41,549 nt of DNA, from IMG/VR virus record IMGVR_UViG_3300024262_000076, positions 1-41,549 of that record; one strand, given 5' to 3'. The stretch's first letter is position 1, and every line of letters begins with the position of its first letter. Source of the DNA: a virus. The position numbers and the translations under genes are program-made. The notes under the pieces are model-generated. The model did no database searches, had not been told where the DNA came from, and saw nothing but the letters and a program-made list of their open reading frames with translations. Below, piece after piece: positions 946 through 30,858 of this stretch.

Positions 946-1713
946 CTACACGTAGGTGTCCCTGTACGCTATATTCAAGGTCCCTGTGGTGCTGAATCCC
1001 GTGACCTTGACGTGGCACGCTGCATGCGCAACAACTCCGCCTCCAGGTATCAACCGAGGGAATTGCCCGGTCACAGTCGCCATCGAAGCAGCTCCTTCCT
1101 TGGTGACTAGCCATGTGGTCGAGTCTACGACTAACACATCTGTATTGGCTAGACTACCCACCCATTGCAGCTCCTCGGCTGTCTCCACACACTCTAGTTT
1201 GATGGTAACATCAGTCAGGGCTTCTCCAGCAGTAAGGGTGTATACGGGCGTCGAATAGCCAGACCCGTGCGTGGTTTCCGTCACCGTCTTGGGGTCGGCG
1301 TCTATGTTGTGGTTACTGGAAACCAGGTCGTTGTCATACGCTAACGGGTCCGGACAAACAAACTCTAGGTCGCCGGCGAATGAAATAGGCGACTGATACC
1401 TGCCAGTCAGCGAGACGAACTGAGCGTTGAAGTATCGGTCGGACAGAACATCGAGAATGAGCGTCTGAGTGTCTCGCACGTTCAAGAAGTATTTGACCTC
1501 ATTCAAGTTGATCTCTAGGTTGGCGCGGCTAGTACCGGTGACGACGACGCCTAGCAATATCGTCTTAGCCGGCCGATGAGCCCCGAAAGTATACGCTTTA
1601 TCTAGCAACTGAACATAGTCGGGCGATTGCCCGAAGTCTGTGGCAGTGTGGCTCACGACTACTAGCTTATACGTAGCCAGGTCGGTTCCACCTATCACTA
1701 TGCTATTGCTCAT
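946..1713 (-). CDS. Distal tail protein (Dit)
   Basis: This 255-residue protein lies between the tape measure and the Tal genes, the canonical Dit position. The middle carries DRYFNAQFVSLTGRY and DLEFVCPDPLAYDN, typical of the siphovirus Dit / tail-component family whose N-terminal half forms the hexameric ring joining the tail tube to the tip. The C-terminal half is a probable beta-sandwich. Its ATG overlaps the tape-measure stop by 4 bases. Nothing unusual in length or composition. Confidence 0.85.
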   Translation of the reverse strand: MSNSIVIGGTDLATYKLVVVSHTATDFGQSPDYVQLLDKAYTFGAHRPAKTILLGVVVTGTSRANLEINLNEVKYFLNVRDTQTLILDVLSDRYFNAQFVSLTGRYQSPISFAGDLEFVCPDPLAYDNDLVSSNHNIDADPKTVTETTHGSGYSTPVYTLTAGEALTDVTIKLECVETAEELQWVGSLANTDVLVVDSTTWLVTKEGAASMATVTGQFPRLIPGGGVVAHAACHVKVTGFSTTGTLNIAYRDTYV

Positions 1714-3629
1714 GCGCCCACCATCCTCGCTTTAGACTGTTGCATCCGGTATAACTCCCTGGCTATCCTGGCAATATCGGCCTCCTCTCGCACAGCCAGT
1801 TCCCCGATGTTGAAGTTGTTCACAACTCCAGCCCCGGAAGGACTAACGACCTCTGGCCCCTTCTCGCCCGCTATCGCATATGGCCGCATGGACTTCAACC
1901 CATACAGTAACGTAGGCTCCGGTATGATACCGCCCTTGGCGAACTTGGGCAAGCTAATCTCCGGAATGTTGAAGCCGATAGTCTTACCACCTAGCCATCC
2001 AGGCATCGTCACATGAATCTTGTTGATTTGCCGTATCAACCAGTTAATGGCCCTCTGGATACCGTCGATCGCAAATCTGAACGGCGCAAGCATGATGTCC
2101 TTTAGCGTCGAGAACGCCTGCTTGATTTTGCTTGGGATAGCCTGGAAGAATCCCACGATGCCCTCCCAGATGTTTCTGATCCCCTCGCCCAAGGCTGACA
2201 TATCCAGCCCCATCTTGTCCTTGATCGACGTGAAGAAGCTACCGATAGCCCCCCAAATTTGCAGGAACTTATCTTTCACCCAATCCCAGTTTTTCACCAG
2301 CAGGATTATACCGGCGATAAGCGCCGCCACCGCTATGATAATCAGCCCGATGGGGTTAGCGCTCATGGCTATATTCATTAACCATTGCGCCGCAGCAGCA
2401 ACCTTCGTAGCGACTGCAATGAGCTTGAGGGCATTCAGCAGCGGGCCTGCAATAACCATTATCCCGCCTATGGCACCAACCGTGGCTAGTATACCAGCCG
2501 TTAGCTTGGGATGCTTCTCGACCCAGGCAGATATCTTCTCGATGATTGGCGTTACCATCTCCAGCAGCTTGATTAGTGCCGGCATCAGGGTATTGCCTAA
2601 TATCATGGCTGTGTCCTTTACTTGAGCTTCCAGTTTCGCAAACTGGCGAGCAGTCGTCTTCTCCATCTCGACTAAAGCATCTGCAGTAGAACCAGCCGAA
2701 TCTCCAACAGCGTCTATATCGGCCACTGCTCCTTTGGCATTATCACCAGTGATTCCATAGACAAGACCGAGAGCTTCTATACTACTAAATGCTTTACCTA
2801 TTACTTCTTTATCACCTTTAGCGGCTTTTGTTAGAGTATCTAGAGTGCCAGCAAAACCCAGAGCTTGCAGCATCGCCTCGCCACTTTCATATTCAGAGGC
2901 TTTGATTAACTCTGTCATCTCTGCCGTCGGTGTCATCAGAGATGACATAGAGGCTCTTATTTGACTAAATGCTTGGGCAGTTGGAACGCCCTGTTTTGTA
3001 AGAGTAGCAAGAACGCCTAGAACTTCCTTATATCCTACTCCTAAGGCAGCAGCGAAAGGCATCGCAGTTGACATATTTGCTGAAAGTTCTGGAAAGGTTG
3101 TCACGCCTTTGGCTATAGTGGTGAACATTGCATCAGATACTTCCTGAGCCTCACTCATGGGTAACTTATAAGCATTGAGGACTGTAGTTAAACCTTCCAC
3201 AGATGATTTGGTATCGGTCATCCCCGCTATCCCTGCCTTTGTTGCTAGTCTGAGAAAGTCAACAGCATTTTCTTTCGGCACTCCTGCGGATATAACCTGG
3301 TAGAGAGCGTTGGCGGATTCCACGGCGTCCACGCCCATGTCCTTCGCCAAGCCTCGAACATCCTTGGAGAGTGCCTTAAACTCATCCTCATCGAGAAGCA
3401 TCATGGTGTTGACTGCGCGCATAGCCGAATCAAAATCAGCGGCCATCTTCAACGATGCCCCACCAATGGCAGTGCTGGCCCCCAGCATGACACCGCCAGC
3501 GATCTTCAGCTTCTTGCCCCACTGACTGGAGGCTTTGTCCAGTTTGCCGGTGACACCATCGATCCCACGATCGAAGTTTCCGGTGTCCAAACCTAGCTCG
3601 ACTACTGCATCGCCCGCGCTAATCGCCAT
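1710..3629 (-). CDS. Tail tape measure protein (TP901 family)
   Basis: The 639-residue protein has the TP901-type core in the N-terminal half (AADFDSAMRAVNTMM..., GMTDTKSSVEGLTTVLNAY..., ...AQAFSQIRASMSSLM). A hydrophobic segment at about residues 370-455 (LTAGILATVGAIGGIMVIAGP, then NPIGLIIIAVAALIAGIILLV) precedes a Trp-rich stretch (WDWVKDKF, IWGAIGSFFTSI). It sets tail length and is threaded through the tube; at the usual about 0.15 nm per residue the tail would be near 95 nm (inference). It starts inside the end of the GT frame (11-base overlap). Codons in roughly 2650-3290 are noticeably more A/T-rich than on either side, suggesting mosaic origin of the core. Confidence 0.93.
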   Translation of the reverse strand: MAISAGDAVVELGLDTGNFDRGIDGVTGKLDKASSQWGKKLKIAGGVMLGASTAIGGASLKMAADFDSAMRAVNTMMLLDEDEFKALSKDVRGLAKDMGVDAVESANALYQVISAGVPKENAVDFLRLATKAGIAGMTDTKSSVEGLTTVLNAYKLPMSEAQEVSDAMFTTIAKGVTTFPELSANMSTAMPFAAALGVGYKEVLGVLATLTKQGVPTAQAFSQIRASMSSLMTPTAEMTELIKASEYESGEAMLQALGFAGTLDTLTKAAKGDKEVIGKAFSSIEALGLVYGITGDNAKGAVADIDAVGDSAGSTADALVEMEKTTARQFAKLEAQVKDTAMILGNTLMPALIKLLEMVTPIIEKISAWVEKHPKLTAGILATVGAIGGIMVIAGPLLNALKLIAVATKVAAAAQWLMNIAMSANPIGLIIIAVAALIAGIILLVKNWDWVKDKFLQIWGAIGSFFTSIKDKMGLDMSALGEGIRNIWEGIVGFFQAIPSKIKQAFSTLKDIMLAPFRFAIDGIQRAINWLIRQINKIHVTMPGWLGGKTIGFNIPEISLPKFAKGGIIPEPTLLYGLKSMRPYAIAGEKGPEVVSPSGAGVVNNFNIGELAVREEADIARIARELYRMQQSKARMVGA

Positions 3630-28729: not shown

Positions 28730-28768
28730 CGCTATTGCCCTTAATATGGGATAAATCTTAGAGTTCAT
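28706..28768 (-). pseudogene. Leftover 3' tail of a methyltransferase-like gene (20 codons)
   Basis: Between the HNH-AP2 gene stop and the next gene lies a short frame, ATG to TGA, encoding ...IYPILRAIAKLEGMAK. It resembles the end of the methyltransferase upstream of the HNH gene (QQCYNILKAIALIEEG). It also carries the KLEGMAK ending shared with two other genes. Best explained as the displaced 3' end of the methyltransferase after insertion of the HNH gene. Confidence 0.55.
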
Positions 28769-29225
28769 TGAGATAGGCATACTCCCCGTGTAGTACCTTA
28801 GCCACCTCGTTGTAAGCTCTCGCAGCCTCTAATGCTGTATCAAACCGCCCTAGATTATGTTGGCACTTATTCAGAGAAATGCTTGCCATATACTTGCCTC
28901 GGCTCTTATCAAAACAGACACCTTTGTAGCCTGTCTTGTTACTAGATAACATTTTCCGATTGATATAGTTTTTCTCAGGCTTGACTATCCTTAAATTCTG
29001 TTCTTGATTGTCAGCCTTATCTTGGTTCTTATGGTCTATCTCCCATCCAGTAGGAGCCATCATAATATATCGGTGCATCAAGATGTGCTCTTTGCCCTTA
29101 CGACCCCCTATGTCCCTTACAGCATAGCCCTTGGTAGAACAATACCATTTCCATTTACTTAAGATAGGATACCAATAGTCATCAACCAGTGCCTCTTTGC
29201 CCTTACTCAGACATATGGTTTTCAT
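28758..29225 (-). CDS. HNH homing endonuclease with AP2 DNA-binding domain (155 aa)
   Basis: ATG at 29225 has GGAGGG eight bases upstream and overlaps the end of the methyltransferase frame. The HNH part is KGKEHILMHRYIMMAPTGWEIDHKNQDKADNQEQNLRIV; the C-terminal AP2 domain is SSNKTGYKGVCFDKSRGKYMASISLNKCQHNLGRFDTALEAARAYNEVAKVLHG. The gene is A/T-rich, unlike its neighbours. These enzymes home into conserved genes. It sits at the 3' end of a methyltransferase whose apparent original tail is found downstream. Confidence 0.85.
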   Translation of the reverse strand: MKTICLSKGKEALVDDYWYPILSKWKWYCSTKGYAVRDIGGRKGKEHILMHRYIMMAPTGWEIDHKNQDKADNQEQNLRIVKPEKNYINRKMLSSNKTGYKGVCFDKSRGKYMASISLNKCQHNLGRFDTALEAARAYNEVAKVLHGEYAYLNEL

Positions 29226-30858
29226 CAACTTTTCCCTCCTCAATCAGTGCTATTGCCTTGAGTATATTATAGCACTGTTGGGGCACAACCGCATTCCCTA
29301 ACGCTCTCAGTTTGTTCACTCTATCCTTCACTCCTGCCGCAACTCTGGGGATCCCATCTTCCCAGCTTCCGGCTGCCCATCGCTCTCTATGTCCAACCAG
29401 CCAGGAGGAAAGCCCATCATGGCAGTCACCCAATCGGGGTTCAACTGCCCAGTGGTCGGGATTCCAGCCCTTTCGCAGACCTTTGTCTTGAAGTCTCCGG
29501 ACATCGCATTGTGAGCTGCCGGGTTGTTTGCCCCTGCCTGTGGTGTCGGCCAGAGCTTCGCTTCCTTCGCTATCTTGCTTCCCAGGTCGTCCCCTCCACT
29601 CTTGGGCCGATTTTGCCTGTTCATATCCGGGTGACTCATCTGCTCTGTCGGTGTGGGCCACATCTTCACATCTGTTCTCAGGCTTCTGCCTTGCCCTCCA
29701 CCCGTTGAACCCTTGCAATCCGCTACTGCTGGCGTGGCCCACATCTTGACCTGATTCCGCAATCTGCATTGCGATGTCTGCTTGTTCTCCTGGTACTTCT
29801 GCCACCCCTCTGCTGACCCACATCGACCTGCATCTTCTACTGTGGGCGTTTGCCACAATAAACACTCGGTCTCGTCTATGCGGGGCGTTAACGGCACAAG
29901 CCGGTATAACAAACGCCTGTGTTTCATAACCCGCACCTTCCAGGTCAGATAGCACACCGTCGAGCGGAAGCCCCCCTTGTACACTAAGTATTCCAGTAGG
30001 GTTTTCAAAAATGGCGTAAGTTGGTTGCATTTCTCTAAGGATTCTAATAGCTTCACTCCAGAGCCAACGGTCATCTTTTGTGCCTCTACGCTTCCCTGCA
30101 ACACTCGCTGGTTGACAGGGTACCCCTGCCGTGAGAAGAGTAAGCCTATTTGCTTTTCTTGTGCATTTCGTTGTGGCATATTTCGCATAGAGTAACTCCA
30201 TTAGATAAGTCAAATCGTTCTTCGGGATATTCTGCCCAGGAGCGGATATGGTGCGCTCGTAAATAGTTGTGCCGTCTTGGTTTAAGTCCGCATTGCTGGC
30301 AAGTGTAATCATCTCGGGCAAATACCCTTCTTCTCCATTGGGATACTTCTGCTTCTTTATATCGCTGGTGCCGTTCGTATCCACTCCCATCTTTCCAGTT
30401 GGGGTTTCCGTCTCCTCGCATCCAAGCCCCACCATTAGCATTTGCCCCGTTACCTCCTCGCATCGCCTTGACACGACATTCCCAAGAACAGTATTTCCAA
30501 CCTCGGGCAGCAATGCTTGGAGGTAAGGACACCACTTTGCGGCAATAGAGACACTCTTTATTAACTCGCCTCTTCCTCTGGGCATCATCAGCCAATTGTA
30601 GATTTGCAATATCTGCTGCTCTTTGTTTTTCGCTTCGCATAATTTATTATAGCATATTCCGTCATTGTCACCAAGTTCCCATGCAGATAGGTCAAATATG
30701 TCTTTGTGTACTGGAACCTCTGGCCAGTGCTTCCGTAGCACCTTTTGGCAATAGGCATCATTCTCACAGAACAGGACGGTGCGAAATCCAGCCCACTCAG
30801 CGGCGAGGTCAATGCCGCCGATACCAGAGAACAGTGATACGTGCGTGAGCTCACTCAC
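29203..30858 (-). CDS. DNA (cytosine-5) methyltransferase with 178-residue insertion (551 aa)
   Basis: Conserved motifs: I LFSGIGGIDLAAEWAGF (residues 9-25), IV GVPCQPASVAGKRRG with the catalytic Cys (about 248), VI FENPTGIL, VIII PHRRDRVFIVANAHS, and X LRALGNAVVPQQ near the C-terminus. The GTG start overlaps the upstream stop (GTGA). Residues about 59-236 have no place in the family and are the out-of-frame translation of an embedded HNH gene (30146-30640). Without it the enzyme would be about 373 residues, the family's usual size. Whether the inserted protein is active is uncertain. The 3' half is also overlapped by a second ORF. Confidence 0.82.
   Translation of the reverse strand: MSELTHVSLFSGIGGIDLAAEWAGFRTVLFCENDAYCQKVLRKHWPEVPVHKDIFDLSAWELGDNDGICYNKLCEAKNKEQQILQIYNWLMMPRGRGELIKSVSIAAKWCPYLQALLPEVGNTVLGNVVSRRCEEVTGQMLMVGLGCEETETPTGKMGVDTNGTSDIKKQKYPNGEEGYLPEMITLASNADLNQDGTTIYERTISAPGQNIPKNDLTYLMELLYAKYATTKCTRKANRLTLLTAGVPCQPASVAGKRRGTKDDRWLWSEAIRILREMQPTYAIFENPTGILSVQGGLPLDGVLSDLEGAGYETQAFVIPACAVNAPHRRDRVFIVANAHSRRCRSMWVSRGVAEVPGEQADIAMQIAESGQDVGHASSSGLQGFNGWRARQKPENRCEDVAHTDRADESPGYEQAKSAQEWRGRPGKQDSEGSEALADTTGRGKQPGSSQCDVRRLQDKGLRKGWNPDHWAVEPRLGDCHDGLSSWLVGHRERWAAGSWEDGIPRVAAGVKDRVNKLRALGNAVVPQQCYNILKAIALIEEGKVDENHMSE
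29266..29274 (-). promoter_or_regulatory. Extended -10 (TGCTATAAT) before the HNH-AP2 gene
   Basis: A perfect extended -10 element lies about 40 bases before the HNH-AP2 start, inside the methyltransferase 3' end. No convincing -35 is seen, as expected for TGn promoters. Confidence 0.4.
29328..30188 (-). CDS. WPTP-repeat protein overlapping the methyltransferase (up to 286 aa)
   Basis: This frame overlaps the methyltransferase across its catalytic and C-terminal parts. It reads STVCYLTWKVRVMKHRRLLYRLVPLTPRIDETECLLWQTPT, then repeated (L/M)W(P/A)TP units and ends GQLNPDWVTAMMGFPPGWLD. This pattern matches phage proteins I know as companions or C-terminal parts of cytosine methylases (…SxPRTxETxxGxWPTP…LNPxWVEWLMGFPxGW). 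Both frames therefore look like evolved proteins. The start is uncertain; the family-like part begins near residue 40. Confidence 0.6.
   Translation of the reverse strand: MRNMPQRNAQEKQIGLLFSRQGYPVNQRVLQGSVEAQKMTVGSGVKLLESLEKCNQLTPFLKTLLEYLVYKGGFRSTVCYLTWKVRVMKHRRLLYRLVPLTPRIDETECLLWQTPTVEDAGRCGSAEGWQKYQENKQTSQCRLRNQVKMWATPAVADCKGSTGGGQGRSLRTDVKMWPTPTEQMSHPDMNRQNRPKSGGDDLGSKIAKEAKLWPTPQAGANNPAAHNAMSGDFKTKVCERAGIPTTGQLNPDWVTAMMGFPPGWLDIESDGQPEAGKMGSPELRQE
30146..30640 (-). CDS. HNH endonuclease nested inside the methyltransferase gene (164 aa)
   Basis: The gene lies fully within the methyltransferase frame, in another minus-strand frame. It has a zinc-finger-like part (ECLYCRKVVSLPPSIAARGWKYCSWECRVKAM) and a full HNH core (FARDDYTCQQCGLKPRRHNYLRAHHIRSWAEYPEERFDLSNGVTLCEICHNEMH). 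Its limits nearly equal the segment that is foreign to the methyltransferase, so it arrived as an insertion of about 534 bases. The start ATG is five bases from a TATAAT box, implying a leaderless mRNA. Confidence 0.85.
   Translation of the reverse strand: MRSEKQRAADIANLQLADDAQRKRRVNKECLYCRKVVSLPPSIAARGWKYCSWECRVKAMRGGNGANANGGAWMRGDGNPNWKDGSGYERHQRYKEAEVSQWRRRVFARDDYTCQQCGLKPRRHNYLRAHHIRSWAEYPEERFDLSNGVTLCEICHNEMHKKSK
30646..30654 (-). promoter_or_regulatory. Extended -10 (TGCTATAAT) directly before nested HNH gene
   Basis: TATAAT lies at 30646-30651 with TG at the extended position, and a weak TTGGTG 17 bases further upstream. The initiator codon is only five bases downstream, so transcription would begin at the ATG. 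Confidence 0.5.

Follow-up and report, generated by a model that had tools for sequence, protein, structure and literature searches.

An HNH endonuclease gene nested in a viral C5-cytosine methyltransferase gene whose reading frame stays open through the insert

Homing genes are thought to spare the genes that they target by splicing, as introns and inteins do, by occupying intergenic sites, or by splitting the target into parts that are then reassembled. Intron- and intein-encoded homing endonucleases resemble the locus described here in that the nuclease gene lies inside another gene without damage to that gene's product; they differ from it in that our locus has no splicing element of either kind, and its host product would carry the translated insert. 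Viral overprinted and nested genes, in which one stretch of DNA encodes two proteins in two frames, offer a further parallel, but our locus houses a nuclease gene that has homologues and was imported, not an ORF that arose de novo, and the peptide added in the host frame looks like a by-product.

Free-standing HNH homing endonucleases that split their host genes have been described in phages, namely mobE in the nrdA gene of Aeh1 and mobA in the topoisomerase gene of T4 (PMC2988022). As in these cases, our HNH gene has no intron or intein around it and lies within the coding sequence of a conserved phage gene; however, the host gene of mobE or mobA consists of two ORFs, whereas the host ORF studied here is continuous through the nuclease gene. 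In plant chromomethylases, finally, motifs I and IV of the methyltransferase are separated by a chromodomain (PMC3934875). In these enzymes (CMT3/ZMET2), which are C5-methyltransferases and remain active, the large insertion occupies the loop that also holds the insert of our locus, a precedent, not a proof, which suggests that a large insertion at this site may be compatible with activity. Their chromodomain is functional and is read in the methyltransferase frame, whereas the loop peptide of our locus results from reading an HNH gene in another frame. In the open-licence literature we found no description of a nested HNH gene that preserves the frame of its host.

The host methyltransferase and the nested gene

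The nested pair sits on the minus strand of the window, by which we mean the whole stretch of DNA analyzed, a virus record of 41,549 bases (Table 1). The original prediction had placed a methyltransferase at 30858-29203 with an HNH gene nested in its open frame, and the coordinates proved right; the HNH gene lies at 30640-30146. The methyltransferase starts with a GTG that overlaps the stop codon of the upstream gene (GTGA), an arrangement consistent with its translation from the phage operon, and no stop is found before the one at 29203. It is matched in two stretches by PF00145 (Pfam, E 7.9e-37) and, also as two stretches, by two phage families, phrog_363 being among the matches. The C5 motifs are present in order, I (FxGxGG), IV (PCQ), VI (EN), VIII (RxR) and X (GNAV), with the invariant columns P247 C248 Q249, E285 N286, R329 R331 and G521 N522; all catalytic motifs are intact and the half downstream of the insert is well conserved. 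Structure prediction of the 551-residue protein, a check suggested beforehand, gave an AlphaFold2 model with a confident core (pLDDT about 80-96 in blocks around residues 1-60, 261-290, 301-340 and 521-540) and a low-confidence insert (pLDDT about 30-70), the variable region also being poor. Foldseek matched this model to C5-methyltransferases including M.HhaI, M.HaeIII and ZMET2, the last of which ranks first. Motifs and fold together place the protein among the C5-cytosine DNA methyltransferases.

Table 1. Coordinates of the nested locus, of the genes around it, and of the BUCT618 locus
Feature	Position	Strand	Length, matches and remarks
C5-cytosine DNA methyltransferase, host ORF	29203..30858	-	551 aa, uninterrupted across the insert; PF00145, phrog_363, Foldseek
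Inserted segment, approximate	30142..30668	-	Defined against relatives without the segment; ends uncertain by about 10-25 nt
Nested gene, predicted HNH endonuclease	30146..30640	-	164 aa; PF01844, phrog_1271 and other PHROGs
Promoter-like element	30646..30674	-	TTGGTG - 17 nt - TATAAT, extended -10 (TGC); ends 5 nt before the HNH ATG
Third-frame ORF, apparently overprinted	29328..30188	-	286 aa; phrog_1008; family-wide
Second predicted endonuclease gene, HNH-AP2	28758..29243	-	PF00847, PF13392; likely ATG at 29225
BUCT618 locus (L013)	1312-3213		201-residue HNH nested in a 633-residue N-type methyltransferase

The HNH gene is complete and is encoded on the same strand as the methyltransferase, in a different frame. 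Its product matches the HNH domain PF01844 above the curated Pfam cut-off (E 1.8e-8) and is laid out as a Cys-pair (zinc-finger-like) segment, the sequence NPNWKDG and the HNH domain; its Cys pairs and H-N-H residues mark it as a putative HNH endonuclease. The stop codon of this gene coincides with the point at which methyltransferase homology resumes.

Uninterrupted homologues were sought, as had been proposed, and were found. Among some 150 relatives drawn from contigs of viruses and bacteria, the spacing between motif I and motif IV is nearly always 63-72 codons (63-64 in most, 69-72 in many others), versus 237 in the window methyltransferase. The extra segment is consequently real, although the excess is about 165-174 codons and not exactly the 178 first counted, and the HNH gene with its stop takes up 165 codons. 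Very little of the insert lies outside the HNH gene, as had been noticed, the amount being roughly 0-26 nt instead of about 40. Alignment could place the segment, but not its exact ends. A native domain was rejected since the segment is missing from relatives, so that the feared case of a segment native to all homologues did not hold. Native hydrophilic inserts of up to roughly 100 residues do occur in the same loop of three relatives (L020, L021, L055).

When the full methyltransferase and the HNH gene were used as scan queries, no copy of the window insert in the same gene came up; among phages and plasmids no record covers 80% of the 551-aa fusion, and in genome contigs methyltransferases were found, none with a nested HNH. 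Since no close relative was found, a single sequence is all that bears on the mobility of the window insert and on the selection acting upon it. Two loci with only two host-frame stops (L004, L099) turned out not to be nested.

Other arrangements could be set aside from the anatomy of the locus. No Rfam intron family was detected around the insert at a relaxed threshold (E <= 5), and a group I or group II intron was rejected, there being no Rfam core and the insert being almost wholly HNH coding. An intein was likewise rejected, since the HNH is read in another frame and no Hint/intein domain was found by Pfam in the 551-aa protein. Both exclusions had been anticipated in the original prediction. 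A host gene split by a homing endonuclease gene, of the mobE/Aeh1 type, does not agree with a host ORF that is continuous over 551 aa.

The open host frame in the window and in N-type methyltransferases

When the synonymous codons of the HNH gene were permuted, keeping its protein and codon use (200,000 shuffles), a mean of 6.05 stops was expected in the methyltransferase frame, and none is observed (P 1.5e-5). With codons drawn from the codon usage of the window as an alternative null, the probability of zero stops was 1.5e-4. The null was calibrated on 28 non-nested HNH genes, which had 230 stops versus 226.5 expected, none of the genes having zero. The open methyltransferase frame through the HNH gene is not due to chance, as first supposed, and there is statistical support for purifying selection having kept that frame stop-free across the insert.

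Searching with the HNH of the window brought up Escherichia phage BUCT618 (OM735461), in which an HNH gene is nested in an N-type methyltransferase (Table 1). The deposited annotation of this phage has one 'site-specific DNA-methyltransferase', and the nested gene of 201 residues was missed. Relatives of this locus in viral contigs (L201-L213) encode HNHs that share 58-94% amino acid identity with the BUCT618 protein. Each HNH gene is nested a short way past the GFPKS motif of the methyltransferase, and the host frame continues without a stop across it and, as far as the contig extends, to either side; complete members carry the host motifs DPPY and DPFxGSG. In the 12 nested HNH genes of BUCT618 and 11 relatives, 0 stops occur in the host frame where 25.1 are expected; the remaining frame contains 185, close to its expectation of 184.9. 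These genes have a common ancestry and do not count as 12 separate tests, but for seven representatives alone (L013, L205, L206, L208, L209, L211, L212) about 16 stops are expected. These figures lend strong independent support to the selection for an open host frame that had been suggested from the window.

The window and the N-type class share the phase of the two genes (host frame at HNH offset 1), the avoidance of stops, and a promoter-like TATAAT just before the ATG. Their HNHs are only about 31% identical, and the host families differ, C5 versus N-type. Judged from these sequences, we are dealing with a recurring arrangement and not with the same element, and the N-type class is an independent second case of a nested, frame-open HNH. 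The insertion sites of both classes are naturally length-variable loops, that of N-methyltransferases without HNH measuring 15 to 156 codons. A native in-frame segment of about 70-80 codons (RFTEWVRSTGIT...) is often present in the latter, in the loop after GFPKSxDVSKAID (L217, L218, L222, L223, L225 and others). Nothing closely resembling the BUCT618 locus was found in E. coli genomes, and the predicted structure of one N-methyltransferase fusion (L205) was too poor for use (pLDDT 44).

Promoter-like sequences precede the nested genes of both classes. That of the window has a weak -35 box (3/6 matches) and is not listed by a strict consensus promoter scan. In the N-type class, several nested HNHs have a consensus sigma-70 promoter of their own, its -10 box ending exactly 6 nt upstream of the ATG: it is perfect in L208 and L210 (TTGACA-N16-TATAAT) and matches at 11/12 positions in L203, L205 and L213, and L209 has a TATAAT with a weak -35 box. 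This spacing suggests that the mRNA of the nested HNH may be leaderless or near-leaderless.

Mobility, selection and the explanation of the insert

Divergence at fourfold sites was compared between members of the N-type class. Between L201 and L013, 7/72 such sites differ in the HNH versus 27/36 in the upstream host flank, and between L203 and L205 the figures are 10/73 versus 15/31 in the host flank. The insert, far less diverged than the methyltransferase that surrounds it, appears to move between alleles. In L208 and L210, the 87-nt leader that codes in the host frame only is identical and the flank differs at 15/31 fourfold sites; because this leader is also little diverged, double coding is unlikely to be the sole cause of the low divergence of the insert. 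Furthermore, pN/pS is 0.18-0.45 for the HNH and 0.2-0.6 for the host flanks, and both genes look maintained by purifying selection. Inside the insert the host-frame pN/pS is near 1, a ratio that is biased in overlapping frames, and it is only indicated that there the openness of the host frame matters while its amino acids are free. The HNHs of L208 and L210 are nearly identical in the leader and the C-terminal half and diverged in the N-terminal half, a pattern that suggests domain swapping.

The explanation that we favor, and hold to be probable, is that a homing-type HNH gene, with neither intron nor intein, occupies the length-variable loop between motifs I and IV, the host frame being kept open so that one chain can be made. 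As the anatomy of the locus shows, the HNH gene was inserted in such a way that the methyltransferase resumes in frame, and purifying selection, for which the statistics argue, would purge host-frame stops from the insert, whose HNH frame encodes the nuclease. A promoter of its own, at the 5' border of the insert, would drive the HNH gene, probably yielding a leaderless or nearly leaderless mRNA. Ribosomes coming from the methyltransferase start would meet no stop and produce one chain with about 170 extra residues, which may form a disordered loop and leave the catalytic fold intact, as the model with its confident core and low-confidence insert suggests. The nuclease would cut insert-free alleles, and repair would copy the element in, by analogy with the N-methyltransferase class; the mobility of the window copy and the activity of the fused enzyme are both inferred. 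For the most part this agrees with the original interpretation.

A broader proposal seems to us evenly poised between right and wrong: besides introns and inteins there would be a third route by which a homing gene spares the gene it occupies, in which the nuclease gene is constrained to leave the host frame stop-free and the host enzyme puts up with a loop read from that other frame. This route would have evolved at least two times, in C5 and in N-type methyltransferases. If selection for an open host frame is true, it would provide another way of sparing the target with no need for splicing machinery. A nested nuclease ORF together with a stop-free host frame would be a signature searchable in all phage genomes, and annotators would be expected to call such loci a single long methyltransferase and to miss the nuclease, as in BUCT618.

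Four other explanations were weighed. The N-type HNH appears to move between methyltransferases that are near synonymous saturation, including some with differing target-recognition regions, and 78 of the 80 nearest N-methyltransferases have no HNH insert, the two carriers being loci already known. Moreover, the HNH is matched by HNH families of phages, a large number of them of the homing type, and restriction-type NCBIfam models score far below cut-off. All this makes it unlikely that the two genes form a nested restriction-modification pair, in which the methyltransferase would protect the sites of the HNH and nesting would keep the genes linked, even though two unrelated methyltransferase families each have members with a nuclease inside them and nesting would ensure the co-transfer of both genes.

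We regard as quite unlikely a recent insertion into a dead or decaying methyltransferase whose open frame is a coincidence. The insert is a single sequence for which close relatives were not found, and an HNH insertion can accompany a broken methyltransferase, because two loci described below (L019, L054) pair an insertion in the same loop with a stop at motif IV. Against this, the zero-stop probability is only 1.5e-5 to 1.5e-4, the catalytic motifs are all intact with a well-conserved downstream half, and 12/12 nested HNHs of the N-type class show the same open frame.

The methyltransferase halves might instead be made separately and then reassemble, with the HNH promoter or a re-initiation close to the HNH stop giving rise to the second half. 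There is an in-frame ATG near the 3' end of the HNH gene (MELLYAKYATT...), and functional split enzymes are known, such as the T4-like nrdA split by mobE (PMC2988022). Nevertheless, no stop ends the N-terminal half, so translation begun at the methyltransferase start has to carry on into the insert and beyond, and a split gene gives no reason for the avoidance of stops; we consider it very unlikely. Most improbable is a small unrecognized intron or bypass element, removed from the RNA or skipped by ribosomes, for which nothing direct speaks beyond the existence of comparable untranslated segments in phages, and which is at odds with the negative Rfam search, with the few nucleotides outside the HNH gene, and with the conservation of an open, in-phase host frame that removal would not need.

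Overlapping and neighbouring genes

The second half of the methyltransferase is also covered, in the remaining frame, by a third ORF that the original prediction missed. It overlaps the last 14 codons of the HNH gene, and positions 30146-30188 are open in all three frames. A +1-frame ORF over the C-terminal part of the gene is conserved almost everywhere in the C5-methyltransferase family, mostly with 160-360 codons (L002, L003, L010-L012, L016-L095, L132-L198), and in 18 loci 4 stops were observed in it versus 65.4 expected. It ends in a motif like LNPxWVEWLMGFPxGW, and annotations often list it as a further 'DNA methyltransferase' beside the first. It looks like a real overprinted gene.

A different HNH, with a helix-turn-helix-like segment, is found in the C5 loop between motifs I and IV of L019 (139-790) and L054 (3166-3800), and a scan with it found only those two loci. 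This HNH reads in the methyltransferase frame and has a perfect TTGACA-N17-TATAAT promoter and an AGGAGG; a 6-nt insertion with a stop lies exactly at motif IV (GGFP*SCQP). In the window, the second HNH gene (HNH_3 and AP2 domains) begins at the 3' end of the methyltransferase, and two HNH genes touch one methyltransferase.
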